Shown one piece after another: positions 5,106-61,245 of a stretch of 64,000 nucleotides of DNA (position 1 is its first letter; each line of letters opens with the position of its first letter). The notes beneath the pieces were generated by a model. The model made no database searches and had not been told where the DNA came from. It saw only the letters and a program-made list of their open reading frames with translations. This DNA is from Aldrovandia affinis (taxonomy: Eukaryota; Chordata; Actinopteri; Notacanthiformes; Halosauridae), in the NCBI GenBank assembly GCA_029706075.1, contig JAINUG010000011.1:5067501-5131500 (forward strand), written 5' to 3'. Both the position numbers and the translations under genes were made by a program.

Positions 5106-6050
5106 ATGTACCCCACCTTTAAAATAACACTTTCCCAGCAGAAAAGGGCACTGCAAGATCACTGCAATAGACAGCTTTCATCTCATGTACACTCCGTGTC
5201 TGCTGAGTCCTGTGGAACATCCATGGCAAACAAATATTACTATATGAATAGGATAGCTTATTTACAAACACCCTCAACCTGCCCCCCAACTACCCACCCC
5301 CATGTAGAAACTATTCATGCTTGGCAAGGCCTCCCATTGGATAAATTAATACTCAATTTACTTTACATAAGCTTGCATTGGCTGCTTTTGTCCTAAACTT
5401 TGAGTAACACATTTCAATGAGTGTTATATTAATTTATTTCTTGCACAATATTTTTTTCCATTAATTTCAGTTACTGCCGGGCCAGTCATATTTTTTCACA
5501 TGCATAACTTGAGCACTGCGATTATTGCATTTATGTTCAATCACATTACGTTTACAGAATCAGTTGGGATATATGAGCAAATTGCAAACATGTCACAAGA
5601 CCTCAAAAGAAGTGGCTCAGCACGAACGTTGTCACAAACGTTGTGAGTTGTCAATTTCATTCCACTGCCAGACACTCCCGGTTGTCTGTACGTTTCTCCA
5701 AAACTCTGGGAACGGATTCAAAATGGATGGCATTCACATCATTTGTGTGTTCTGTATAAACAGTTCTGCATGACATGAATGATTTACGACACTCTTAAAT
5801 CTTAAGGTTCACTCAACAAAAGATGCATTCCGTTCATTACGGAACAGTTTGTTAAATGGGCTGCATTGCTATTTCCTCCTATATCCTGCAGCTACACTGG
5901 CTGCCTCCAGTGACAGTATGAAATTCACATGTAGCAATGCAGCAGAAGAGAGTGCCTAGATATTTAAAACAGTACATATTTAAAGTATAATTCAACTACA
6001 ATTTTATAAATTGCTACGGGATTGCCCGGGATTGCGGGATTGCGTCATAC
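5106..6050. other. Intronic sequence, no gene seen
   Basis: AT-rich unique-looking sequence. Small open frames have no recognisable domain. Confidence 0.5.
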
Positions 6051-6380
6051 GTGCTGAGAGTAGGGAAATATACTATAGCAAATCCAAGAGTAGGGAAATA
6101 TACTATAGCTAACTAGCTTTTGTTGGTTTAAATTTAAATTTAATTGTTGTATTTCAAGCGTAGAGCGTATAGCCGTTTCGGTTGGCTGCTACCAGCGCTC
6201 TTGCTACAGAAACCGGACCGAAAGTTTTTTAATTCGCTTTAAGTGTTGTTTCCATTTAGACATTTCTGCACCTGAGTGTTCGGAACCGAGGTGTATAGTA
6301 TTTTTTATCGACTTGGTGTCTCTGTTTAGGTAGTAATTCGTTCAGTGCAGGGAGAGCAGTAGATATATTTAGGGGTGAAA

Positions 6381-7295
6381 ATGTGGCCACCGGCAGTGCA
6401 GTGTGAGTGTTGTAGAATGATTGCATTTCTGGAAGAAGACTTCCAGGAGGGTTTCATCTGCGACAGATGCCAGCTTGTGAAGCATCTCGAGAGAAAGATC
6501 CTTGATCTCGAAGCCCAACTTGTTGGTCTCGACTGCCCTGCAGAATTTGCAGAGTTCCAGGAACTAATTAGTACGCCCTTTAGAGAGTTAGCCTGCACGC
6601 CGAAGCGGGGTAGGGGGGAGACTCTAGAGCAGGTAGGGAGAGAGAGTTGGGTGACGGTAGGGCGCCAGCATAGAAAAGGGCGCGCACATGCAGGGGCGGC
6701 ATCTCCAGAGATTGTGGTGTCCAACCGATTCCAGCCCTTGCAGGAAGAGGATCTGGCCCAGCCCTCTGTGAGCGGGAGGAAAAGGGAGTTAATTGTAGTG
6801 GGGGATTCAATCATTAGAGGTGTAGACAGTATAGTCTGTTCGCGGGAAAAGGAATCTCGCATGGCATGTTGCCTGCCTGGTGCTCAGGTTGGAGATCTCC
6901 TGGAACACGTGGACAAGCTCCTGGCCAGAGCAGGGGTGGATCCAGTGGTCATGGTCCATGTTGGAACCAATGACATAGGTAAGGGTAGGTTTGAGGTTCT
7001 GCAGGACAAATTTATAGAATTAGGAACAAAGTTAAGGGGCAGAACCTCCACGGTGGTCTTCTCTGGAATTCTGCCAGTACCACGTGCTAGCAAAGGCAAG
7101 CAGAATTTTATATGGAGATTTAACACGTGGCTACAAACCTGGTGCAGGAAAGAGGGGTACAGGTTTATGGGGCACTGGGACTCCTTTTGGAACAGGGGTG
7201 ACCTGTACAAGCGGGATGGATTACACTTGAACCGGAGGGGTACAGATGCATTGGGCCAGCATATGCTTAGGGTAGCGGAGGAATATTTAAACTAG
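6381..7295 (+). CDS. CR1 LINE ORF1 protein (zinc finger + SGNH esterase)
   Basis: An intact ORF of about 304 residues from the ATG at 6381 (a GTG two codons upstream is also in frame). The N-terminus has a cysteine cluster (CECC, then C-D-R-C about 17 residues later), fitting the zinc-binding/PHD-like module of CR1 ORF1. A short leucine-rich coiled coil follows (LVKHLERKILDLEAQLVGL). The C-terminal half is an SGNH/GDSL-type esterase: VVGDSIIRG (catalytic Ser near residue 145), HVGTNDIG (block III, near 197-200) and DGLHLNRRG (catalytic Asp and His near 281-284). ORF1 proteins of this type bind nucleic acid, and the esterase role in retrotransposition is not settled. It is followed by a gap of about 120 bp and then ORF2 on the same transcript. 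Confidence 0.9.
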   Translation: MWPPAVQCECCRMIAFLEEDFQEGFICDRCQLVKHLERKILDLEAQLVGLDCPAEFAEFQELISTPFRELACTPKRGRGETLEQVGRESWVTVGRQHRKGRAHAGAASPEIVVSNRFQPLQEEDLAQPSVSGRKRELIVVGDSIIRGVDSIVCSREKESRMACCLPGAQVGDLLEHVDKLLARAGVDPVVMVHVGTNDIGKGRFEVLQDKFIELGTKLRGRTSTVVFSGILPVPRASKGKQNFIWRFNTWLQTWCRKEGYRFMGHWDSFWNRGDLYKRDGLHLNRRGTDALGQHMLRVAEEYLN

Positions 7296-7637
7296 GGACT
7301 GGGGGGGCAGGGAGGGAAATTAGTAGTAGTAGTATTATGGATAGGGAGGTACAGACTGCCCAGATGGAAGATACCAGGGTGGAGTATAATAAATCTGAGG
7401 ATATCATTAATAAAGATTTTTTTAGATCATAATGTGAATAGAGGTGGTTCGGCACACTCAGGTGTGGAGGGGAAGGACAACATAAGTGTGAGTAAGGCTC
7501 TGAAGCTCATGTGTTTAAATGCGAGAAGCATAAAAAATACATTTTTGGAACTGGAGGCTGTCATGTTGAATGGGGGTTATGACATTGTTGGGATTACTGA
7601 GACATGGCTTGGCACAGCGGATGGGGAGGAATATAAT

Positions 7638-8005
7638 CTCATCTCATCTCATCTCATTGTCTAAGCCGCTTATTCCTGGTCAGGGTCGCGGGGGGGGCTG
7701 GAGCCTATCCCAGCATTTTGCATAGGGGCGAGAGGCAGGAATAAACCCTGGACAAGGCGCCAATCCATCGCAGGGCACACACACCATTCACTCACACACT
7801 CATACCTACGGGCAATTTAGACTCTCCAATTAGGCTAACGTGCATGTCTTTGGACTGTGGGAGGAAACCGGAGTACCCGGAGGAAACCCACGTGGACACG
7901 GGGAGAACATGCAAACTCCACACAGAAAGGCCCCCGGCCTGGATTCGAACCCGAGACCTTCTTGCTGTGAGGCGACAGCGCTATCCACTGCACCACCGTG
8001 CCGCC
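7638..8005 (-). mobile_element. DANA/mermaid-like tRNA-derived SINE, copy 1, nested in CR1
   Basis: The reverse complement starts GGCGGCACGGTGGTGCAGTG (box A region), has a box-B-like GGTTCGAATCC, the conserved GTTTGCATGTTCTCCCCGTG body, and ends AAGCGGCTTAGACAATG followed by (ATGAG)n. Nine-bp target duplications GAATATAAT flank it (7629-7637 and 8006-8014). It interrupts the CR1 endonuclease. The name is by resemblance to zebrafish DANA/mermaid; the 3' part differs. Confidence 0.88.
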
Positions 8006-8862
8006 GAATATAATGTAGAGGGGTACAAATTGTTTAGGAAGGATAGAACTAATAAAAGAGGAGGGGGAGTGGCCCTATATGTGAAAGACAATCTTAATGT
8101 GCAGGAAATTCCAGGTATAAACTCATTAGTTTCTTGTGAGGACATCTGGATTAGATTATTGGGAGATCGTGAGAAGGGCCTTAATATAGGAGTATGCTAT
8201 AGACCTCCAGCTTCAGACAGTAACATAAATAGTACGCTCTTTGGTAACATAAAACAAATCTGTGCTGAAGGAGAGATGATAATACTGGGCGACTTCAATT
8301 ACCCCTCTATTAATTGGGAGATAGTGACAAGTCAGGGCAAATGTGAAGAAGAGTTTTTAGATATGGTCAATGACTGCTTTTTGGTACAGTCTGTTACTCA
8401 GCCTACGAGTGGGAAATCAATACTGGATCTGGTTTTGTGTAACAATCCTGATAGAATTTGCAGCACAGAGGTAGGAGAACCAATAGGGGCAAGTGACCAC
8501 AGTGCAGTTATTTTAGATATTTTTTGGCAAGTTAAGACAGCCTCCTCTAACTCTCTAATTTTTAATTTTAGACGAGCTGACTTTAATAAAATGAGAGAGA
8601 ATTTAAGTAATATAGATTGGGTAAAACTTCTAGATTGCAGAACTGTGAATGAAAAATGGACTATATTTAAAAGGGTTATTGTAGATGTACAGCGTAAATT
8701 CATCCCCAAAGTAAGGAAAAATAGGATGAAAAAACAGTCTCCGCAGTGGATGACTAAATCTTTACGGGAGATTTTGAGGCAAAAGAAACGACTGTACAGA
8801 GTATATAAAAAGGATAACTCAGAGAGAAACAAGTTCGATTATTGTAATATGCGGGCTAAGGC

Positions 8863-9230
8863 GGCGGCACGGTGGTGCAGTGGATAGCACTGTCGCCTCA
8901 CAGCAAGAAGGTCTCGGGTTCAAATCCAGGCCGGGGGCCTTTCTGTGCGGAGTTTGCATGTTCTCCCCGTGTCCGCGTGGGTTTCCTCCGGGTACTCCGG
9001 TTTCTTCCCACAGTCCAAAAACATGCACGTTAGGCTAATTGGAGAGTCTAAATTGCCCGTAGGTATGAGTGTGTGAGTGAATGGTGTGTGTGCCCTGTGA
9101 TGGATTGGCGACCTGTCCAGGGTGTATTCCTGCCTCTCGCCCGGAACGCATGCTGGGATAGGCTCCAGCACCCCCCCCGCGACCCTGACCAGGAATAAGC
9201 GGCTTAGACAATGGATGGATGGATGGATGG
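8863..9230 (+). mobile_element. DANA/mermaid-like tRNA-derived SINE, copy 2, nested in CR1
   Basis: Same family as 7638-8005 but in the opposite orientation, same length (368 bp), with 3' tail (ATGG)n. A 14-bp target duplication ATGCGGGCTAAGGC lies at 8849-8862 and 9231-9244. The two copies differ at few positions, so both insertions are recent. Confidence 0.9.
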
Positions 9231-11133
9231 ATGCGGGCTAAGGCTAAAAAGGAAATAAGATCAGCTAAAAGGCGGTTTGAAATTAAAATTTCCCAAGATG
9301 CAAAAAGTAATCCTAAGAAGTTTTTTCAATATTGTAGTAGAAAAAGGAAAGTTAAGGATGAGGTTAAGTGCATTAAGAATAAGGAAGGAACTTTGGTTTA
9401 TAATAATAAGGATATTGCAAACACAGTAAACAGTTACTTTGTGGAGAGCTTTACTAGAGAAGAGGTTATAAATATGCCTAAATGTATAGACAAGGTACAT
9501 AATGTTTTGGAGGACTTTGAAATAAGGGACGTAGAAGTACTACAAAAACTACAAAAACTTAAGACAAATAAGGCAGCAGGCCCGGATGGCATATATCCCA
9601 GAGTACTCAAAGAACTTGGGGAAATTATATATAAACCATTGACAGATATTTTCATTCAATCCATAATCACTGGAGAAATACCAGATGACTGGAAGCAGGG
9701 TAGTATAATTCCAATATATAAGAAGGGGGACCGTACTGACCCAGGGAACTATAGTCCTGTCAGTTTAACTTGCATCGCATGTAAAATGCTGGAATGTATT
9801 ATTAGGGAGAAGTTGGAATCATTCTTGATAAATAATAGTATTTTAAGGGAGAGCCAACATAGATTTCTCAAAGGGAGGTCATGCCTAACAAACCTCCTGG
9901 ACTTTTTCGAAGAGGCTACAAAGTGTGTTGACCTGAACCAGGCTTATGATATTATATATTTGGACTTTCAGAAAGCATTTGACAAGGTACCACACGAGAG
10001 GCTCATTGCTAAAATGAATTCAGTAGGAATTGCAGGAGTAGTTTCACAGTGGGTTCAAAATTGGCTGCAAGGGCGAGTACAAAGAGTAACAGTAGGTGGG
10101 GCCGAATCTGACCTCGGTGCTGTGGGCAGTGGTGTCCCGCAGGGATCGGTGCTGGGACCTCTGCTCTTCCTTATTTACATAAATGATCTTGATATGGACA
10201 TTAGTAGCAAAATAGTTAAATTTGCAGATGATACTAAACTTGGGGGTTTGGCAAACAGTTTGGAATCGACTAAAGTAATCCAAGATGATTTAAACAAAAT
10301 CAAAAAATGGGCAGATACATGGCAGATGATGTTCAATATTGCTAAATGTAAAGTTATGCATGTGGGAAATAAAAACATTAGAGAGGAGTATTTTATGGGA
10401 GGAGAAAAGTTAGTAAGTGTTCAATTTGAAAAGGACTTCCGAATTGTAGTTGATCAAAGCCTATCTGCATCAAAGCAGTGTGCTACAGCAGTGAAAAAAA
10501 GCCAACAGGATGCTGGGATACATAGCAAAAAGTATTGAGTATAAATCAAAGGAGGTTATATTAATGTTATATAATGCCTTTGTCAGACCGCACTTAGAAT
10601 ACTGTGTGCAGTTCTGGGCACCGCACTACAAGAAAGATATAGAAGCTCTTGAAAAAGTCCAAAGAAGGGCAACTAAACTGATACCTGGTATGAAAGGTAA
10701 AAGTTATGATGATACTGTAGACATAAAGCACTCAATCTATTTAAACTTAGCAAATGGAGACTTAGGGGGGATTTGATTGAGGTTTTTAAATTCCTAAAAG
10801 GGATTAACAAAGTAAAATACCACAGATTTTTAAAGATAAGTGGGGTCAGCAGAACAAGAGGCCACAGGTGGAAATTAGTTAAAGGCAAATTCCGCACAGA
10901 TATTAAGAAGTTTTTCTTTACACAGAGAGTTGTCAATGCCTGGAACAGCTTGCCAGGTCAGGTAGTAGAGGCAGAAACGCTTGGGCTATTCAAGTCCAGG
11001 CTAGATGTAGTACTAGATACTCTTTAGATTAGGACATGATGAGCCTAGATGGGCCGAACGGCCCGTTCTCATCATTATGTATTCTTATGTTCTTATGTTC
11101 TTAAATGTTTTGCCCCACCTTTGCTTAAGTATG

Positions 11134-11284: not shown

Positions 11285-12110
11285 TGAAACCATACCAAGG
11301 AGCCCCCGGTTTTTACTAAGCAATAAATCAAGCTAATGTGACATTCTTCTGTGGTTCTGTTATCAACTTCAAAGCAATCAAAGCCTCATACAATCCCCAG
11401 AATGCATTTCAGCACCTGTATGCCTCTGGATTGAAACATTTCTGCAGTGTCTGCAGGGGGCTGAAACCACAGAGGAGCAATGCAATCACTGTGTGTTTTG
11501 ATGGAAATCTTTTCGAATAATAATGTTCCATGGAAACATAAATGTAATTGGTCCAGGACAGAAACCTGACCATGCTATAAGGGGTCATAATTGAATCGTA
11601 AAAATACAGACTTGTTTCCGGGAATCTGAAATCAAGTATTCATTCTCTTCCATTTCACAGAAGAGCAGAAATTGAATGTACAGAGTGAATGAAGATTGAA
11701 AAATGAAAGCGGGAGTTCTGCACCCCTCATATGGTGTTGGGCACTTCATTCAGATACCCACTAAATTGTAATATGTGGAGCAACTTAATGGTACCTTTGC
11801 TTCATTCCTGGGTGCTGTCTTAAGGGAAATAGGGATTAGGCACAGGAGCAAAATACACACATATGCACACAGTGAGTCGAATGGCAATCTCAGTAGCTTT
11901 GATTTGAGTCAAGATGCTGCATTCCCTGGAGATTCAGATTTTTGATAGATGGGCCAAAGAACAAAGATTAAATATCATGCTACGAAGAAGCTCATAAATC
12001 AATCATCAGAACATGAAAAATACATATATATATATATGTACGGATCAGGGAGCAAGGAGCAGACAGCACGCACGAATAAAAATCCTTTCTGTTTATAATG
12101 GAATCTGGAA
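11285..12110. other. Intronic sequence, no gene seen
   Basis: Unique-looking AT-rich intronic DNA with no recognised repeat. Confidence 0.5.
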
Positions 12111-12115
12111 TATAG

Positions 12116-12812
12116 TGTCATGGTTTGAGTGCCTGTTTAGCCCTGTGTGGGCGTATTCCTTTTCTATCCTCGTGAGTACGTTCCTGCTCATCTCCATATC
12201 TAATCAGCGGATTGTTTTCAGGTGTTCACTGCCTACTTCAGTTCGCTGCTTTCACTACTCCGTGCTTCAGTGTCTATTCATTTGGTGTTGAAGCGGTGCG
12301 GTGTCAGTCCTAAAAAGAAAGTATTTAGAAAAGTATTTCACTTTAGCTTTCGCCACTTCTACGGAAGTCTAGCTTTTCTTATTTTGTTTGGTCTGTGTTT
12401 CGGGGTTACTTACCGGCAGACCCAGGGCACTTATTTTCGCTGTTCGTTTTCCTAAACTGCGTCTTAGGCGTCTGGGTTCTATTCCAGCTTTGTTTTTTGT
12501 TTGTGTTGCGACTCAAATAATTTTATTTATTTTTTCCTCTGCATGTGGTGTTGGGCTACACGCTAGAATTTTCTGTTTGGTTTTACTATCGTTCGGTACC
12601 GTTCGTGGACCGCTTTTATTCGCCCTTTTTAGGGGTAGTTATTATTTCGTCTTACGCTGGGAGTTTTGTTTTATTTTCTGTAGCGGTTCTCGTGGGTTCC
12701 AAGGTTCCCTTGCTCCCTCTTGTGTTTTAGTGACATCCTGATTTTTCAGGAGTGTTTCTGATCCTTATTCCCCATTGGTCGCACTTGGGCCTCACCCCTA
12801 CAAGCCCTCACA
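12116..12812 (+). mobile_element. Probable fossil solo LTR (Gypsy-like), tentative
   Basis: A T-rich block of about 697 bp begins TGTCATGG and ends CACA, the TG...CA form of retroviral-type LTRs. Imperfect 5-bp repeats flank it (TATAG at 12111-12115, TACAG at 12813-12817). No internal genes lie on either side, so it would be a solo LTR, an old remnant. The family is inferred from form only. Confidence 0.45.
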
Positions 12813-17124: not shown

Positions 17125-17446
17125 TCATTCATTCATTGATTATCTACCCCGCTTATTCCTGGTCAGGGTCATGGGGATCTGAAGCCTATCCCAGCATGCA
17201 TTGGGCGAGAGGCAGGAATACACCCAGACAGTTCGCCAATCCATTGCAGGGCACATACACCATTCACTCACACACTCATACCTATGGGCAATTTAGACTC
17301 TCCAATTAGCCTAACGTGCATGTCTTTGGACTGTGGACACGGGAGAACATGCAAACTCCAAACAGAAAGGCCCCGGCCTGGATTCGAACCTGCGATCTTC
17401 TTGCTGTGTGATGACAGTGCTATCCACTGCCCCACTGTGCCGCCCT
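17125..17446 (-). mobile_element. DANA/mermaid-like SINE, copy 3
   Basis: Same family as the two SINEs nested in the CR1, more diverged, with a deletion of about 25 bp in the CGTGGGTTTCCTCCGG region. Target duplications ATTCGTAGCAT (17114-17124) and ATTCATAGCAT (17447-17457) differ at one base. The tail repeat is (ATGA)n. Confidence 0.88.
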
Positions 17447-17457
17447 ATTCATAGCAT

Positions 17458-32493: not shown

Positions 32494-33982
32494 GCCAAAA
32501 TAGTTTTATCCTACATTGCATAACTTTATTGTACATTATCAAGCTTCGTAAATAAGCACAATGAATACTATTAGAATAGTATTATAGCATGCAAATCTCA
32601 AAGGCCATTGTGCATTCAGATGGTTTAATCAAAGGTGAAAATGGATAATTGTTTGCAGTAGAAATCTATTTTAAGCCCTTAACTGTCACCCACTACTTTT
32701 GGTATTCACACCTATTTGGACACACCCGAAATAACAGTTTAAAAACTCAAGAACTATGATATGGCCACATGCCTACATTTGTTATAATTTGAAAGGAAAC
32801 ACATTGTATTTTATGGCGGTGTGCTCAAATAACATGTGCATGTTTAGTTTTCTTGTGTAGAAACTCAATAAAGGGGTCCTGTGAGTTTGGTGCATGCCTT
32901 GTACGACATGTCAACTAAGTTTGTGCAAAAAAAACTGACTTCTAGACCTAAGGACTCACAAAATAGAGGCCTTTTAGTGTGTGGTGTCACTGGTGGTCTC
33001 CAAGTGTCCCAAAACCTATCCAAGGCGGCCAAATTGGCCCAATGATTTCTATTCACTTCTGTAACACTTGAAAACATACTAAAACGTTTTGATGACCACA
33101 AAACCAGTTTTTATCACCCAAACTATTATGGATCATTATTTTTCTCACAAAACAGATACTAATGTGATGGCTCAAAGTGTCTCCTAATGTCTCCAAGTGA
33201 CCCAATTCACTTCTGTGACACTATGAATCACACTACAGCATGTTGTTGCCTATGAGACACATACACCAAAGTCAAACCAAAGAATTGGATAGCAACAACA
33301 GAAGCAACAACATTGTAAATGGTACCAAAGGCAAATGGTAACGAAATGGTAAAAAAAGTAACCAACGGGACAGTAGTCTGGTTATTGTGCGTTGTGTGCC
33401 ACATTACACAGATGAAAGGACAATGGAGCTAATGAAATCAATTGTCAATTTCACAATCTAAGAAAGCTTATGGACGTGCTTAAGTATGAGGGGCCAACCG
33501 CTAATGCTATAATAATTTGGCAAAGTCTGTGAGAGCCACTGCTATGTGCCTGTAACTCCCAGGCATGGCTGCAGCTCTACATTAGTCCATGGTATATAAT
33601 GTAATAATATAATGGTAGTGGAATAGTGGGCCCACAGGCTCTACACAAGCGTGCTCTGATCTTATAGCACCAAAATCCATTGAGGAATTCTAGAACAGCT
33701 CTATAAATTATCAGCACATTTAGTCAGAACTGACTTACAACCGCAATTCACTATGCACTCAACTTTGATTACGTGGGGAAAAAAATAGAAGAGAAAGCCA
33801 GCTTTTCATTTTTACATGTCTCACATCACATTTGTTTGTCTAATTTCAGTAACCACACAATTAAATGTTGTTAGGAAAGAAGCATCACTTACTTGAATGC
33901 TATTCAGAGTTATTCAGAGTTAAGGTCTAGCTTCATTGTGGGTATACTGAACTGGGGCTAAGGTCTGGTCTCGGTCTGGTAC
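32494..33982. other. EDIL3 intron 6, no gene seen
   Basis: Unique-looking AT-rich intronic sequence up to the donor of exon 6. Confidence 0.5.
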
Positions 33983-34164
33983 CTGAATCCAGGGCCATCG
34001 GTCATTCTCAGCAGCTGTCCAGGCGTTCACCAGGCCTTTCTTGTTGAGTCGGGCAAAGTACGGATACCACTTCTGCAGCCCAAAAAGAGCCCGGTGTGTG
34101 GACGAGGCTGTGATCTGCTGGTTAGAGATGATTCCTCCCTCCATTCCCAGGGGTCCAGAGCACT
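33983..34164 (-). CDS. EDIL3: EDIL3 exon 6: first part of discoidin domain C1
   Basis: This 182-nt exon encodes the start of the first F5/8-type C (discoidin) domain, from [16 protein letters not shown] to ENDRWPWIQ. Its first two bases AG join the A left by exon 5 to give the Lys before CSGPLG, exactly as in known EDIL3. It ends on a codon boundary (CAG) with donor GTACCA. The opening cysteine normally pairs with the last cysteine of the domain in exon 8. The C domains bind membrane phospholipid. The acceptor is TTCCCCAG, but its upstream side is a (TG)n repeat of about 90 bp instead of an ordinary pyrimidine tract. Intron 6 downstream is about 5.8 kb. Confidence 0.95.
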
Positions 34165-34170
34165 CTGGGG

Positions 34171-34262
<92 letters not shown>
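34171..34262. repeat. (CA)n/(TG)n microsatellite at the EDIL3 exon 6 acceptor
   Basis: An almost pure CA repeat of about 90 bp ends 6-7 bases from the exon 6 splice acceptor. In the transcript it reads (UG)n followed by UUCCCCAG, so it occupies the position of the polypyrimidine tract. Confidence 0.97.
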
Positions 34263-34343
34263 AACACATAGATGAAGGCAAATTAGTTCAAGATCACTCT
34301 AGCATGTATCAGTTTCATACAGGAAAACTATTTGTGTAAGTAC

Positions 34344-35021
34344 CAAAGGGACAGCATTCTTTGAACTTGATTGTCAAAATATCCTTGTCCACGGTTATAC
34401 TTTCTAAGATGGCCCGTTTGTTAACAGCGGCCTCCGAGGTGCTCTCTTCATCATCATCATCATCATCATCATGCTCATCGTGGTCGCCATCGCTGATCGA
34501 TTCAGTTTCAGAGGCATCCACCTTGCTGGTGTCGACTTGGGAAATGTCAGACGGGGTTTCGCAGATGAAGATCGTGTCCTTTGTTTCACTGACTGAGGAC
34601 GTGTTCTTCTCCTCACTCTCTGAAGGTGACTCCTTTGTAATGCTCAACGAGAACGACTCTTTCGTCCCGCTCATCGAGAACGAATCCTTTGTCTCGCTCC
34701 TGCTCCTGGACCCCATGAACGAAACCAAGTCCTTGTTTTCAGACAGGGACATATCACTTTGACTTAAATTGATCAGAATGCTGTCCTTATTTCCCACAAT
34801 CAGCGTAATGTGCCTGTTATTCTCGCTCTGACAAAATCCGCTCCGGTCGAAATTTTCAATGAGTTCAATTTTTTGCGAGGCCAGGTCACCCTCATCTGCT
34901 GAAGGACACATGGCTTTCTCATGGTCACCAGAGGCAAATAAGGCTTTAAAGCCAGATCGCATGGACGCTCTACTACCCTGTTTGGACTCCATCATCACCA
35001 GTGGCAACATGCACACAGCAC
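34344..35021 (-). CDS. Candidate cassette exon or nested ORF in EDIL3 intron 5 (acidic, Ser-rich)
   Basis: On the EDIL3 sense strand an open frame of 233 codons (35016 to the stop at 34315, first ATG at 35010) ends 150 bp before exon 6. I do not recognise the protein. It has a more complex N-terminal part (with HITLIVGNKDSILINLSQ), then imperfect repeats built on S-x-T-K-[DE]-S-F-S, an acidic stretch with seven consecutive Asp, and a C-terminal KDILTIKFKECCPF. There is no signal peptide or membrane segment. An AG just before 35021 and a GT at 34343 bound 678 nt (226 codons). Both junctions are phase 1, so the segment could sit between exon 5 and exon 6 without breaking the EDIL3 frame, between EGF3 and C1. 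The donor (G|GTACTT) is weak and the acceptor is moderate. Alternatives are a retrocopy fragment or a chance ORF. Confidence 0.4.
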
Positions 35022-36840
35022 CTTTAAATAGTCACCCAGGGAAAACACTAAACTGGGAAGGCATGACACTAATCTGTGTCTAATGCAATCTGTCGTTCCC
35101 TAAAGTGTTAGGATCAACAAATAGCTAATCAACATACCCGTTTTTTTTCTTTTCTAAAATTCGCAAAGCAACATTTCGTCATAACAATATTATGCAGTCA
35201 CAGCTGTTGACTTGAAATCCTGCCAAAAAAAAATCTTCAAAGCCTGAGGTTCTTCTCTGAGGCTCTGGGCAACTTTTGTTTACACTAAATATGTGAATCT
35301 TAAGTGGTATAATTACATTTAGTGGAATCATAGAACTGGGCATGATCCCAGAAGTTCTGTACTCTGAAACTCTTATTAAATATTAGAAAAAAGTAAGTCA
35401 GGCACAAATGGAGCTAGAAGAGGATTCTGCATTACAATCTCAGTTTTTGCATGCCAACAATTTGCCACAATTAGACCAGCATACAGTGGGCTTGTTGTCA
35501 GATAATATAAACGTTGATTGCTCCCCAATGAACACAATCTCTAACAGCTCGCGATAAGCAGCTGTCTATGAGGACTTTTTATTTATTAAAGTGTTAGCAA
35601 GCCATTATGTTATCCTTGGGAAAAAAAGCAACAGCCAGTTTACTTCACTGCATTCTGCTCAACGGTCATTCTCACGGTCTAATATGTAGCAGCAGAAAAT
35701 CTGCTTTGTAGCAAAAGGGATGCTTTTATTTGCAGATTTGCAGACAACTAAAATCAAGCAGACGATTGAATTACTGAACACTTATTGCTGCTGTTGTCAA
35801 AGTCTACGAAAATGACTCCACTGTATGCATAATTATGTCCTAAATATCGGTGGTTACTGTACTTTTGAAGAGAAAAAAATCCATCGTTCAGATTAAATGA
35901 GTTAACAAGACCCAACACTAGCAGTCCACGTTGTTTGCCAGTAGCTACCCATTTTCTGTATTGTGTTCTTACAGTAGGTTTGTTAAATGCAGAATTCATG
36001 CTAAACATGATAATTGCTCACAAAATGTATTTAGCAACTTTTAACATTGCTAAATACCATTCATCAGTTTTTCCCCTCAACAGACCAGAACCTTTAATTT
36101 CAAAATCCATGAGTCAATGCTTTGAGCTTAATTAAATTGAGTTTTTCATAATTCTGCTTGAGAGAGACAATAACATACAAGTTGTTTCTAATATATAGAT
36201 TAGTCATCCTCACTCTTGTGAGATGAACAATTATGTAGTAATTGTTTCCTTTTTTTTTTTTTTACACTTCTCAATACACAACTACAATTTCATGAAAGGA
36301 GATAAACAAATCGTGGCCAAAGCTAAATGACACCTGGTAGATTTTTTTAACATAATCCTCAGAATTGGCACAGAAAATGTCAGAATAGAACAGCATTCTA
36401 TTCATCTGCGGATTGAGTGGGAATCATTACATGATTGTCCAACTGAATCCTGTGTGTGACTTATATCCTTGGGATCTGAGTTTTACCAGCATCAAAAGTG
36501 TTTTTTAACCAATGTCTGACTTATAGAGGCAGGCAAACTTTCACAATGGCAAGGCTTTCCCAAGCTCTGCTCTTTCCCCAGATTTACTCATTTCTACTGC
36601 TATGAGTTCAGTTATCAATAGGTATCCTGTGCTGCAAAGTGGCAGTAGATGACTGCTGAAAGGAGGCGTAATGCAATTTAATGCTATTCTAAATCTCTGC
36701 TATGTTTTTGTACAGCGATGCAAAGAGGGGCTTCCATGTATGAGAAGCTCTGCCAGAAAACAGACTGCAAAACAAAAATCTGCCTCGAAGGCTAATGCTA
36801 TTAATGTTAGCATGATTAAAATATCACAAAATTGGACAAA
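35022..36840. other. EDIL3 intron 5, no gene seen
   Basis: Unique-looking intronic DNA upstream of the candidate cassette exon. No recognised repeat apart from short A or T runs. Confidence 0.5.
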
Positions 36841-47649: not shown

Positions 47650-48345
47650 AACTATTGTGAGCTTACTGATTACAGTTAACCTGCATAGTCAGGGAGTTCA
47701 CTAGCCAGGTAGTACTGTAGATATTTACATGGCAAGTTACGGTTGCTAGCTAGCCAGCACTGGATATATTTATATTTATATAATATAATCAGAGTTATAT
47801 AAATAGTATTTAAGGCTTCTAGTTACATCTTTCCTGAAACTGGGGACTGGAGCTAACAAGGAAAGGGCTAGTTAGGTAGTAAGTTAAGCAGGACGTAACG
47901 TTAAGACATGCTTAAAGACGTCAACAATTGTGAGCTTACTATGATTGCAGCTAACATAGTCAGGGAGCCAGCTAGCCAGGACTGGAGATATTTACACAGT
48001 AAACTATCGTGAGCTTGCGGTGACTGCATTTAGCTAACGTAGTCAGGGAGCAAGCCAGCCAGTACTGGAGATACACACTAAACTATTGTGAGCTTACTAT
48101 GACTGCAGTTAGCTAATGTGGCCAGGGAGCTAACTAGCCAGTACTGGAGATATTTACACAGTAAACTATTGTGAGCTTACAATGACTGCAGTTAGCGAAC
48201 TTAGTCATGGAGCTAGCTAGCCATTACTGGAGATATTTACACAGTAAACTATTGTGAGCTTACTTTGACTGCAGTTAGCTAACATAGTCAGGGGGCTAGC
48301 TAGCCAGGACTGGAGATTATCACACAGTAAACTATTATGAGCTGT
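47650..48345. repeat. 83-bp satellite, about six units plus a diverged one
   Basis: From about 47925 units of 83 bp repeat: AAACTATTGTGAGCTTAC, TGACTGCAGTTAGCTAAC, GTCAGGGAGCTAGCTAGCCA and GTACTGGAGATATTTACAC. A diverged unit lies near 47650-47750, separated by unrelated sequence. Unit differences are modest. No gene. Confidence 0.93.
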
Positions 48346-48487
48346 ACCTTTAGATTAGATATCATGTTTTTCTTATGTCACGTTTACTCATTTCAATAGG
48401 GGAAAAGAGAATGTTGTATTTGCATTCAAATCACACAATTATGTTTTCTGTACCCAAATGAGCAACTCACAATTTTTTTTGTGTTTC

Positions 48488-48791
48488 TGATTTTATCCCA
48501 TTTTCTCCCAATTTTGTAGTCAATTAGACCCGCTATTTTTACGTCAATCCCCCCCTAGTAATGTGAGTTCGCTACCGTAGCCCTGCGACCGGTAGTGACG
48601 AAGCGTAGTGACGCCTGTTCCGAGACGGCACTCACCGTCCGTCGACCGTAACCCCGGTGCTACAGGGCCACTCTATGCAGCGAACGTCACGTCGGCTCCC
48701 CTCCCCCCTCCCTGGGGCGGACAGCCAATCGCCGCCCCCTGGTGGCACTCCCGGCCAGAGCCGACACTTGGCGAGACGGGGAATTGAAATG
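48488..48791 (-). mobile_element. GC-rich SINE-like repeat, family S, copy 2
   Basis: The reverse complement begins near CCCCGTCTCGCCAAGTGTCG and ends with AAAATTGGGAGAAAATGGGA TAAAATC-type tail. It is the best-preserved copy with CACCAGGGGGCGGCGATTGG, and aligns end to end with 1110-1440. Confidence 0.78.
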
Positions 48792-49112: not shown

Positions 49113-50565
49113 CAGGGTTGGGAGGGTTACTTTGTAAATGTAATTAGTGCCTGAATACTGATTACACGGCTCTGAAAGTAATCAGATACGAATACAGTTA
49201 CATGTCTCAAAAAAGTAACGTATTCAGATTACTTTTAGAATACTTTTGGATTACTTACTTTTTCCATCACAGATGGGTATGTTTTGGGGAAGCTGTACAT
49301 TGGGAAGCTGTTATATAGCCAAAGGTGGTGCTACTTAGTACTAAAAGGTGCTCAAACTTTTGCACATGCCATGTTCACTTTTTTATTTGATCAGTAATAC
49401 ATTTAAATAGTTATTATGCATTACACTTTGAAAAGGGATGTCATGTTCAACTTTCCACTGTGTTGAGGTCAGGTCAGCTTCTGTTCATTTAATAATAAAT
49501 ACTAATACATTTGAGATGTCAATTTAGCTAAATATATGCAACATTGTATCTGCATTTTTTGTTGTAGTCATCATCAGTAACATGTTATGGAATTAGAATG
49601 GACAGATTACAAATTAATCATAATAAAAAGCAAAGGGATATTGAAAGGCAAGTTCTTTTACTGTTTTGATGGCTCATCATGAGCATAACTCAAACACAGC
49701 ATCTGAAACAATGTAATAACTTTTTAAACTTTTTTGGCACTGGAATAACAGCGACTTGTAAGGGATATGGCTTAGAAAAGTGCCAGTGTTGGCGGGCTGT
49801 GTAGCGGCGAATGCTCGGCAGTGCATAACGTAATTGACGTATAGTAGGGTAAAATTGGCTACCAAATTGGGAGAAAACTGGTAAAAAAAAAAAAAGAATA
49901 AAATAAAATGTCATCGTTTCAACAATAAAGAAAGCAGTATAAAATTAGCAGAGCAGTTCATGCGATGCCTCAAACTGTAGGCTAAGGTCAGGTAACAGCA
50001 AATTACTGCAGAACTGTGTTCATTAAGCTGAAGGTTAGCTAACGTCGACTTACTCCAAGTGCTTTTTAAGATTCGAAGTCGAGTCCTTTGATGCCGACAG
50101 TATCTTTATTCCTGGAAGACACAAGGTACACTGGACCGACAGATTTTTCCCATTTTCTTCTTTAAACTGGAAATTGTGTCGATAACGCCACAAACTAAAA
50201 GCTGACTTTTCTTCCTTGTCGCTATCAATGTTTGTCTTTTTTTTTTAACGCATTTTTCTTAACGCAGTTTTTTGGTTCTGTGCAGCGGCTGTAGTTTTCG
50301 TGAGCTGTGTGATGATAATCATGTAGGCGTGAGAATTTCATGCTGTAGCTTTAGTAATGAATATCAGCTCATTAATGTTTGTAAGGAAAACTTTCCACCA
50401 AGAATTCCAAGAAGTAATCCAAAATGTATTCACTTCAGTTTTATTAAAGTAACTGTATTCAGATTACTCGATTTTCAAATGTAACGCGAGCTGAATACAG
50501 TTACTTGATTTTTGTATTCTGATTACGTAACGCCGTTACATGTATTCCGTTACAACCCAACCCTG
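49113..50565. mobile_element. Non-autonomous hAT-type DNA transposon
   Basis: The ends are inverted repeats CAGGGTTGGG...CCCAACCCTG, flanked by perfect 8-bp target duplications ATCACAGG (49105-49112 and 50566-50573), the hAT signature. The subterminal regions carry repeated GTAACTGTATTCAGATTAC-type motifs in both orientations. No transposase frame is present. A family S fragment lies inside it (49786-49887). Confidence 0.88.
49786..49887 (+). mobile_element. SINE-like family S, copy 3 (3' fragment), nested in hAT
   Basis: It has only the 3' part: AAAATTGGCTACCAAATTGG, then GAGAAAACTGG and a 13-A tail, inside the hAT element. Confidence 0.65.
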
Positions 50566-53609: not shown

Positions 53610-56600
53610 CTTTTTTTGTGAACAATTATTTTATTTTGTTATTTTGTTATTATTAAAATCCATACAACCTTCATCTGCAGCCACATTCCAAGCTGTGATT
53701 GTGTTACAAGAAGCTCTGTGAAGTCGAGCTGTAGTTTTCTCAAGGAGAATGATATCAAAAAAGTAACCCTGCCATACTGCTCTGTAATCATCCAGCCCTT
53801 TATTTAGTTTTATTTGCAGCAGTTAATCCTGCAAGCAGAATTTTCCTGTATTTGAAAGGTAAATTCTATTTAGTGTCGTCTGCCAACAGAAGCCCCTCAG
53901 GAGAGTGTAGAACATTTGCCCCCAACATTTTACTTAATGTGGACATAGCAAAGCATCTCAAAGCATCTCCAAAGCATATCAATTGCAGGACACTCCCAAA
54001 ATACATGTAGATAAGTCCCAATACCCCCCCAATGTGCAAGTCCGACAGACAGGATCCGCCACAAGCCTCATTTGAAATCTCCTGAGTGGAGTTGCATAAT
54101 AACTATGCCAGTTTAAAATGGATCAATTGGTGTGCTACATTTTTTGACAATGAAAAAACATTTTGCCAAACAGTAACCCAATCTGGCATAGCACCCAATT
54201 TCTTCAACTCCCTATCCCACACTAATATGATCGGGAGATTTTTTAAATTATAATCCAACAATTTGCTGTATACTAATGAGACTAAACACAATTCCTGAAA
54301 ATAGGGTAGACCAGCATGGCCAAAAATATCCTTTAAAATATATATATTGCATGTTGACCATTGGGAGCGCACAAAGGGGCGCTAGCCTGTAAGAAGAGAT
54401 ACATTTTGCCAGATAGGAGATCATGTATGAAGCGTGGTTGGAAGATTCAAACCTTTAGAAACTGTCCCATATTTGCAGCGTTAGTAATAATATTGTCCAT
54501 ATGCAGAGAGACAAACTTCTGTTTAAGACCAGAAAATGGTAAATCTTGCAAACGATATGGTTTAGGTCATTAACTTTCAATAGGATGCCAGGACACAGAG
54601 ATTTCAGGATGAAACCATACCTGCATACCTCTTAGTTGAAAGGCCCAGTAATAGCACTGAAAATTCGGTAGAGCAAGACCCCTAGCAGATTTACGGCACT
54701 GTAAAGTAGCCAATCAGATCCTATAACATTTTGCATTCCAAATAAATTTGGAGCTCAAAGTATTCCATTGGTTGCTAAACTTGTAAGGGTGGGAAAGAGG
54801 TAACAGAGAACAAAAAAGTAAGATGAGACAACACATTAATTTTGATCATGGGAATTCTACCGTGCAGTGTGACCCAATGCGATGACCACCTATCCAAATC
54901 AGTCTTAATTTTAGTTAATATACTATCATAGTTTAGTTTTTTAATTACCGATATGCTCTTTGATATTATGACACCAAGGTATGTCAGTCCTTCTTTACAG
55001 GATAAAGTATTTGCCAGGTGTGTTATTGATGGATGCATAGATTCTACATTAAGCGGCAACAAAACTGATTTTGTCCAATTAATTTTATATCCAGAAAAGG
55101 AACCGAATAACTCAAAAAGCTGCAGAGCGTTAGGAGGAGAGTAATCAAGGTCTGACAGATACAACAGCACATCATCCGCCTACAAAGAAATATGATGCCT
55201 CGTGCCCTTTACTACAATAGGGTAAATGAACTCACTTTGTTGGACTGCCTGTGCTATAGATTGAACTGAGAGGGAAAAAGGACAGGACATAAGGGACAGC
55301 CCTGTCTTGTGCCCCTTGACAGAGGGAACTGGGAGGACATCATCCTACCCTGTGGATAGGCAGGCAGTTGGGGAGTTATACAGTGTACGTTTCATGTCGA
55401 TAAAGGGAGAACCAAATACAAATTGTCTCAACACTGCAAGCATATAATGCCATTCCACCCTGTCAAAGGCTTCCTGTGTCCAATGACAGGATGGCAGATG
55501 GCGAGGGAAGGGTATCAGCCTGGTCTATAACATGCACCAAACAACGTATATTATCTGAAGCATGTTTCAATTTTATAAATCCTGTCTGACCATGATGAAT
55601 TAGAGAATGAATGATGACAAACCGTCCAATCCTGGGGCGCACCTTTTATTAATTAAACACAAAGCCTCCTCCAGTTCCCCTAAAGACAAGGGGCATCTTA
55701 TAGTGCCACCTGCTGCGGAGTCAGTTGGGATAGATCAAATTCTATCTAAAGCTGTGACGTTAGTATACATTTCTGATGAGTACAGTTGAGAATAGTAGTT
55801 TTTCAGAACCTCGTTTACCTCTTCTGGCTGGTAGCGCAACTTTCCCGATGAGTCTCTGATTATGTCAAGAGAAGCAAGCTGCTCCGTTTGTTTTAAGTGA
55901 AGAGCTAATAACCTGCTTGGCCGTTCACCGTATTCATAGCATAATTGTCTAGTTTTAAGCAAAAATAACCACTTTGTTTCTAGATTTTTTTTTGTGCCTT
56001 GCTTTTAAGACTTTTAGCCGCCGCAATTTATTGTTGCAAATATTCTTTTAAAACTGTGATTCAGTAGTATTACTGTCCTTCTCCAATTGTGTCAACTGCC
56101 ACCATCTGGATTTATTCAATTAAGATGCACATGATATGGTACTGCTGCATATAAAACACTTGGTTGCCTCCCAAAGGGAGTGAGGGGTTACCTCAGAGCA
56201 AGAGTTATGCAACAGAAATTCTTCCAGGCCTTTGGTGACATGACTAATAAGTTTCTCATTCTGCAACAAAAAGGGTTAAACCTCCAGCGTTTGGCTCTCT
56301 TCACATCTTGAGTGAAATGAAAAGAATAAGCTACAGGTGCATGATCAGAAATCAATATATTTTGCATTTCGGTGGAAGTGGCAAATACAAAATAAACTCT
56401 TAGAAACTAGAATCACACACATTCTGCTGTACAATTTGTGCCTACCCAAGTAAAATGTGTAGTCCTGAGTGGTAGGATTTTCATTTCGCCAAGGGTCACA
56501 CATAGAGAGGTCATTTGTGAAATCCCTCATTAACTGTGCGTTTTTGAGAGATTAAGTAACTGGTTGATGAGAAGTGTCTAAAATATGTGGTTGAAATCGC

Positions 56601-57571
56601 AGAGCTAAAACAATCGGGATGTTCCTGTTCCTGTTGCTGTTCATTGAAGTAACTAGCAATGGGCACTCCGGGCACAGCAAGTCCAAAAACTCAGTAGCCG
56701 CTGCAGGAGAGTCAAAAAGATGGGCCTTGGATTTATGGATAAAGTTGAGTCTGGCAGGGTAGAGACGAAAGGCTTGCACGCCATTGTCACGGGCTCGCTT
56801 GATCAGTTGGGATAAATGCTTCCGACGTTGGGCTGTATGTTTGCTGTAATCCGCAAAAAAGCAAATCTCCTTTCCATCCACAATCAGAGGGTATTGCCTG
56901 GCAACCTGCAGAATAGCCTGGCAATCAGGGTAGCGGAGCAGGCTAAAAATCTGGGTTCTTGGCCTGTCGCCTAGATTATCAGTTGACAGTTTGTCAACCA
57001 GATTAGGGAATTGAGGGAGAGATCCAGTGAGAAAGGCTACTGCATCGGAGCCTTCACTACCTTCACTAAGACCAATAGCACGGATGTTTAATCTGCGGTT
57101 ACAGTCTTCCAACCCTGCCATTTTGGCTTCCATCCGCTCGACTCAGAAGCAGCACATGGACATAAGCTTAGCGTTTTTTTCCACTTTATTTTCAAGTCCC
57201 GAAAGGTTTGTTTTCATACCTTTCAAATCGCTTGACAGAGCCGCCAGTTCTGACTGCATCGAGCTCAACTTCCTTCCAGGCGACTGAACTGAGACTCAAG
57301 AAACGTTTGTTGTTTCTGTGCCCATGTTTCCAAAAATGCCATAAGCTCCAAGCAACTTTTCCCCCTTCCTTAGAAGTGGATGCATGAAAAGGTGCATGAA
57401 AAAGCCCTCCTTTTTGGCTCTGTAACATCTCAAAACCTTAATAAACAGTACCTATTTACCAAATGCATGAGGAATGCAGTAAAATTTGTAAAAATACACA
57501 TATAATGGAGAGGAAGGGATGGAGCCAAGGTTCACACCGCCATTTTCCAACAGGTCACGTGGAACCCCCCA
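53610..57571 (-). mobile_element. L1/Tx1-type LINE, decayed, with target duplication
   Basis: Perfect 15-bp target duplications AAAGTTCAGCACTCT flank it (53595-53609 and 57572-57586). On the minus strand, ORF1 remains at 57133-56552 (RRLNIRAIGLSEGSEG, then a basic C-terminal part with FFADYSKHTAQRRK), typical of fish L1 ORF1. ORF2 remnants follow: endonuclease end (CDPWRNENPTTQDYTFYLGR, 56500), linker (GERPSRLLALHLKQ, 55900), RT after the catalytic region (LLYLSDLDYSPPNALQLFEL and FGSFSGYKINWTKS, 55150) and the C-terminal segment (VFSLSKNVAHQLIHFKLA, 54110). Many stops and shifts are present. The short T run at 53609-53617 is the former poly-A tail. It interrupts repeat X copy B. Confidence 0.9.
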
Positions 57572-61131: not shown

Positions 61132-61245
61132 TGTACTGGCAGTTTCTTCCCATGTACTCTCCAGGGCATTCGCAGGAGTAGTTGGCAACCAAATCCGTGC
61201 AGATTCCTCCATTTTTACAAGGGTGTCTTTCACACTCGTTAACAT
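61132..61245 (-). CDS. EDIL3: EDIL3 exon 5: calcium-binding EGF-like domain 3
   Basis: This 114-nt exon encodes one EGF-like domain that begins DVNEC and ends GRNCQY. It has the six expected cysteines, the calcium-binding start (D-x-N-E-C) and the Asp/Asn hydroxylation pattern C-x-D-x4-Y-x-C in [10 protein letters not shown]. It matches vertebrate EDIL3 EGF3 almost residue for residue as I remember the human protein. The acceptor is ..CTTGCAG before 61245 and the donor is GTAAGTAT from 61131. The exon starts with two bases that complete a codon and ends with one base of the next (phase 1), which exon 6 completes as Lys. EDIL3 is a secreted matrix glycoprotein that bridges alpha-v integrins and phosphatidylserine; the RGD lies in EGF2, outside this window. 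MFGE8 is the nearest paralogue but lacks a third EGF of this sequence. Confidence 0.95.

Follow-up and report, generated by a model that had tools for sequence, protein, structure and literature searches.

A coding-like open reading frame in intron 5 of EDIL3 in Aldrovandia affinis: a possible nested orphan gene

An open frame ahead of EDIL3 exon 6

The window, the whole stretch of 64,000 nucleotides of Aldrovandia affinis DNA that was analysed, carries EDIL3 exons 5 and 6 on the reverse strand and, in the intron between them, a long open frame on the same strand. The features of this part of the window are as follows.

61132 to 61245, reverse strand: EDIL3 exon 5 (third EGF domain), ending in phase 1 (...TACA/GTAAGT)
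34315 to 35031, reverse strand: open frame of 238 codons plus TGA, coding-like, with a single match in its own genome
34344 to 35021, reverse strand: cassette exon proposed in the preliminary description, 678 nt, phase 1 at both ends, weak splice sites
34315 to 34992, reverse strand: putative ATG-to-TGA reading frame, 225 residues (MESKQGSRAS...), A at -3 and G at +4
34617 to 34898, reverse strand: alternative cassette of 282 nt, phase 1 at both ends, better-scoring sites, probably a product of chance
34564 to 34698, reverse strand: five tandem units of 27 nt or 9 residues (SETKDSFSM SGTKESFSL SITKESPSE SEEKNTSSV SETKDTIFI)
33983 to 34164, reverse strand: EDIL3 exon 6 (start of the C1 discoidin domain), beginning after CCCCAG in phase 1

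Exon 5 matched the third EGF domain of EDIL3 in the PDB (4d90, chain residues 97-133, E 3.7e-28), with Delta-like 1 ranking above it (E 1.1e-28), and it also matched the Pfam EGF family (E 7.1e-7). Exon 6 matched the discoidin domains of factor V, factor VIII and lactadherin and gave no match in Pfam at E 0.1. Joined to each other, the domains of the two exons would be consistent with EDIL3. The intron between them measures 26,967 nt, and the exon 5/6 junction lies in phase 1. Most of 34165-34285 on the reverse strand, which precedes the exon 6 acceptor, consists of a (TG)n microsatellite; splicing of exon 6 could depend on the length of this tract.

The preliminary description had reported a 233-codon frame on the EDIL3 sense strand. 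The frame is present, and its length was corrected to 238 codons, running from stop to stop over 35031-34318 and closed by the TGA at 34317-34315. The distance of 150 bp from the stop of the frame to exon 6 was reproduced. The AG at 35023-35022 and the GT at 34343-34342, between which the cassette exon had been placed, were also verified; they enclose a segment of 678 nt, in phase 1 on either side, whose near end lies 179 nt from exon 6.

Coding signal of the frame

Base composition differed among the three codon positions of the frame when stops were disregarded (chi-square 48.9, p 8e-9). In a periodicity scan of the window (714-nt windows, 50-nt steps), the top eight scan windows all overlapped the frame. 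Windows near 10.6, 3.9 and 10.2 kb ranked next, interspersed with one further window that overlaps the frame; those near 10.6 and 10.2 kb lie over the reverse-transcriptase frame of a LINE. A codon-usage score, calculated from a human codon table and with stops skipped, was equalled or exceeded in 5 of 3422 windows, two of which overlap the frame.

When the score was followed in 150-nt steps with stops penalised, it was negative in all 11 steps on the upstream side (starts 36000 to 35100), positive in all seven steps within it (starts 35010 to 34470), and negative again in the two steps that follow; the step over exon 6 scored +2.6 in the same frame and +11.2 in the frame of exon 6 itself. One step of each other frame inside the segment was positive too (+14.4 and +8.1). 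The strongest coding score within the frame was found at 34560-34411. The first 37 codons from the ATG at 34992 scored +9.5, compared to a mean of -6.5 (sd 6.5) for intronic windows with stops ignored; 0.8% of 2000 such windows reached +9.5. The data support the view that the segment is protein-coding now or was so until recently.

The edges of this signal were also scored. The 12 codons before the ATG gave -0.3 and the 8 codons past the GT of the proposed exon gave -3.6, both stretches being too short to decide; if anything, they lean slightly to an exon. The edges are too coarse to tell an exon from a gene, or to pin the ATG and the stop. The 678 nt had a GC content of 0.475, whereas values of 0.35-0.39 were measured in three flanking pieces of the intron and 0.42 in the DNA leading up to exon 6. 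The CpG observed/expected ratio was 0.76 in the segment, 0.40 in the window and 0.42-0.50 in three EDIL3 exons, but high values are not confined to the segment, with at least 40 scanned windows at 0.78-1.01.

The openness of the frame was compared to chance. Sixty simulated sequences of 64 kb that followed the trinucleotide statistics of the window contained no frame of at least 238 codons; their longest frame averaged 163 codons and reached a maximum of 215. With the trinucleotide statistics of the frame itself, 31 frames of at least 238 codons were obtained in no more than 60 sequences of 64 kb, so that composition accounts for part of the openness. With its dinucleotide statistics, none of 15000 simulated frames some 237 codons long (three frames in each of 5000 sequences) was open, and the analytic value was 3.4e-6. 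The 31 simulated frames are what a chance open frame, aided by the purine-rich repeat, has in its favor, whereas the period-three composition, the highest among the windows scanned, and a codon score that is positive along the entire frame, beyond the repeat too, both argue against it. Because of the periodicity this reading is largely refuted, and we regard it as extremely improbable.

Internal repeats and predicted protein

Repeats in the encoded peptide, noted in the preliminary description, were recovered as the five tandem 27-nt units listed above, which follow the pattern S-x-[TE]-K-x-x-x-x-x. Self-match of the DNA at lag 27 was 0.429, compared to 0.248-0.326 at six other lags. Over the ten pairs of units, differences were counted at 33/90 first, 25/90 second and 53/90 third codon positions, with a column permutation p of 0.01 for the third-position excess. 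By the Nei-Gojobori method dN was lower than dS in the five computable pairs; dS was uncomputable in the other five, which we read as saturation. The divergence of the units hints at selection on the protein, a hint rather than proof, since there are few units, they are related to one another, and the register was picked from the protein.

The 238 residues include 47 D/E and 24 K/R, 40 serines, six prolines and as many cysteines. Fourteen [ST]-x-x-[DE] sites, which we take to be of the casein-kinase type, and one S-x-E site were counted. AlphaFold2, run on the single sequence, returned a mean pLDDT of 36.6 and a pTM of 0.23, with runs above 50 at residues 181-196 and 208-223; such low values fit a disordered protein, to the extent that a single-sequence model can indicate this. 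Two strand-rich stretches, residues 69-95 and 201-230, were compared for internal similarity; this was not significant (p 0.23) and was dropped.

Search for relatives and origin

The segment matched itself alone in a DNA search of its own genome (1.22 Gb, 2576 contigs), where counts are lower bounds. The protein search of the same genome returned the frame itself and one stretch of 29% identity at E 0.25 among the best 11 candidates scored; since this search scores the best candidates only, it may have missed distant relatives. This 29% stretch proved to be a minisatellite. No family or structure above the cut-off was found in Pfam (best E 0.39), NCBIfam (0.11), PHROGs (0.11) or the PDB (0.59). 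The scan of IMG/VR for viral relatives gave 7 pattern matches, and that of prokaryote genomes gave 120, with 0 confirmed in either. All six of these collections are of kinds other than vertebrate genomes. Rfam gave 0 matches at gathering thresholds on 33900-36000.

A strong match to an unrelated multi-exon gene, as expected of a retrocopy, had been named in the preliminary description as evidence against its exon; the protein search of the genome returned no parent of this kind among the candidates scored. An exact flanking duplication longer than 7 nt was absent (34230-34345 against 34990-35400), and a poly(A) tract downstream of the frame was not visible in the sequence. A transposon or a recent retrocopy was rejected on the single DNA match in 1.22 Gb, the failure to find a parent, and the lack of a visible poly(A) tract and of a flanking duplication. 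Both origins are therefore unlikely.

An older event was considered as well. The segment may be a dead or transposed fragment of a fast-evolving or foreign gene, left by a lost parent or by an old insertion of an unknown element, in which the frame is still open and has no function now. The shift in composition at both ends would suit such a fragment, as would the failure to find relatives, the absence of either poly(A) signal looked for, and splice sites of decoy quality. Against it, neither an exact flanking duplication of more than 7 nt, a visible poly(A), a second copy or parent in the genome, nor a viral relative in IMG/VR was detected; the frame is also intact across 238 codons. We consider this origin possible but rather unlikely.

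Splice sites and a possible EDIL3 exon

Splice sites were scored with weight matrices and ranked against every AG or GT of the strand. The acceptor at 35021 fell at percentile 62.7 and the donor at 34343 at percentile 66.9, compared to 96.9 for the acceptor and 90.7 for the donor of exon 6. The donor had been called weak in the preliminary description, and its rank among the GTs of the strand agrees with this. The frame offers 67 combinations of an AG with a GT, spaced by 120 nt or more, that fit phase 1 on either side, and the phase match is for this reason weak evidence. Better phase-1 sites are present inside the frame, with acceptors at 34898 and 34895 (percentiles 96-97) and a donor G at 34616 (96.3). 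The 282-nt cassette bounded by these inner sites is disfavored because it leaves out the strongest coding part.

The preliminary description had interpreted the segment as an EDIL3 cassette exon, a 226-codon acidic, Ser-rich linker from the third EGF domain to C1 that would separate the integrin-binding and lipid-binding halves of the protein. Its coding nature, the AG and GT and the phases held up; splice sites of normal strength did not. The exon would share its strand with EDIL3, have phase 1 at both ends and lie close to exon 6, and a segment placed at random in this intron would have one end no more than about 180 nt from one of the two exons in approximately 1.3% of cases. The edge scores given above lean slightly the same way, and the long form of mouse MFG-E8 offers a precedent at the equivalent place (PMC4939324). 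Against the exon stand the decoy-level acceptor and donor, the 67 pairs that chance makes available, and a CpG ratio higher than that of the three EDIL3 exons; it would also be strange for a secreted linker to have six cysteines and to include an in-frame ATG with a favorable context. We judge a cassette exon unlikely, while regarding it as a reading to be taken seriously. Its more specific form, a taxon-restricted EDIL3 exon that encodes a phosphorylatable acidic linker of about 226 residues between the EGF and discoidin domains and was derived from an orphan frame captured by the intron, is more doubtful. In the portions of open-licence PMC papers covered by the literature search, no EDIL3 exon of this kind was met.

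The segment might instead serve as an alternative terminal exon of EDIL3, either as a first exon that opens with the ATG at 34992 and is joined to exon 6, or as a last exon that follows exon 5 and runs to the TGA at 34317-34315. It adjoins exon 6, and one weak site would suffice for either form. With no AATAAA or ATTAAA after the stop, a weak donor and no evidence of a promoter, a terminal exon seems very improbable.

A possible nested orphan gene as the preferred explanation

We slightly favor an intronless orphan gene over the other readings, and give a probability of roughly 0.38 to a small protein-coding gene of one exon that sits within EDIL3 intron 5, in the orientation of its host, and is either live or died recently. 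The frame is complete from ATG to stop, bears a coding signature and carries an A at -3 and a G at +4; it is open beyond chance, has one match in its own genome, and the differences among its repeats are concentrated at third codon positions. Translation would run from the ATG at 34992 to the TGA at 34317-34315, and transcription, by its own promoter or by read-through from EDIL3, is assumed. The product would be an acidic, Ser-rich, mostly disordered protein of about 225 residues with many acidic casein-kinase-type Ser/Thr sites. Inspection by eye revealed no obvious leader, and the protein may act inside the cell as an acidic binding segment regulated by phosphorylation; if the segment is spliced into EDIL3, it would be an extracellular spacer.

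The position of the frame counts against a nested gene. Such proximity to an exon within a 27-kb intron would be an odd coincidence if the two were unrelated, and it favors a link to EDIL3. Neither AATAAA nor ATTAAA was found from 34330 down to 33500, so that a separate transcript would lack an obvious end before EDIL3 exon 6. A promoter scan gave nothing on the strand of the frame, but it used bacterial models and is uninformative for this eukaryote locus.

If the frame is independently translated, it would represent an orphan gene inside an intron of EDIL3, itself the subject of research on vessels and immunity. Splicing into EDIL3 would mean that a bridging molecule has acquired a long spacer separating its two functional halves. 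The frame was invisible to the family libraries searched here.

Comparison with known systems

Orphan single-exon genes nested in introns are a recognized kind of gene. The candidate resembles them in its one-piece ATG-to-stop frame in a host intron and in the lack of relatives found, and differs in lying on the strand of the host, 150 bp ahead of a host exon, with neither common poly(A) signal nearby. With processed retrocopies it shares a single-exon coding stretch inside an intron, whereas neither a parent gene nor a poly(A) nor a flanking duplication was detected.

SIBLING-type phosphoproteins, such as osteopontin, are acidic and Ser-rich, contain an Asp run and are probably disordered. 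The same properties apply to the candidate protein, which differs in showing no obvious leader or RGD by eye, in having only one S-x-E site and in giving no sequence match.

MFG-E8 is a homologue of EDIL3 (DEL-1), and its long form in the mouse has an alternatively spliced Pro/Thr-rich segment between EGF2 and discoidin 1 (PMC4939324). The segment described here has a similar position between EGF and C1 domains. It differs in being rich in Ser, Asp and Glu and in being known from DNA alone, whereas the mouse segment is Pro/Thr-rich and its alternative splicing has been reported.

Other features of the window

A LINE in several frames occupies 6363-11027 on the forward strand. Its recognizable parts, all matched in Pfam, are listed below.

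6363 to 7295, forward strand: GDSL-type lipase frame of the LINE
7745 to 8887, forward strand: endonuclease of the LINE
9189 to 10538, forward strand: reverse transcriptase of the LINE

A further frame of this LINE at 10713-11027 (forward strand) had no Pfam match. Frames judged by eye to be L1-like lie at 54775-57142 on the reverse strand, with no Pfam match at E 0.001. Elevated CpG observed/expected ratios of 0.78-1.01, compared to the window mean of 0.40, were observed in 714-nt windows starting at 11851-12251, 48151-48551 and 49551-50051, and also at 5551-6001. Similar translated words (RAHTPFTHTLIP...GNLDSPI) were seen by eye at 7745-7990 (forward strand), 8920-9237 (reverse strand) and 17140-17454 (forward strand); the three places represent a dispersed repeat, which has apparently inserted in the LINE.
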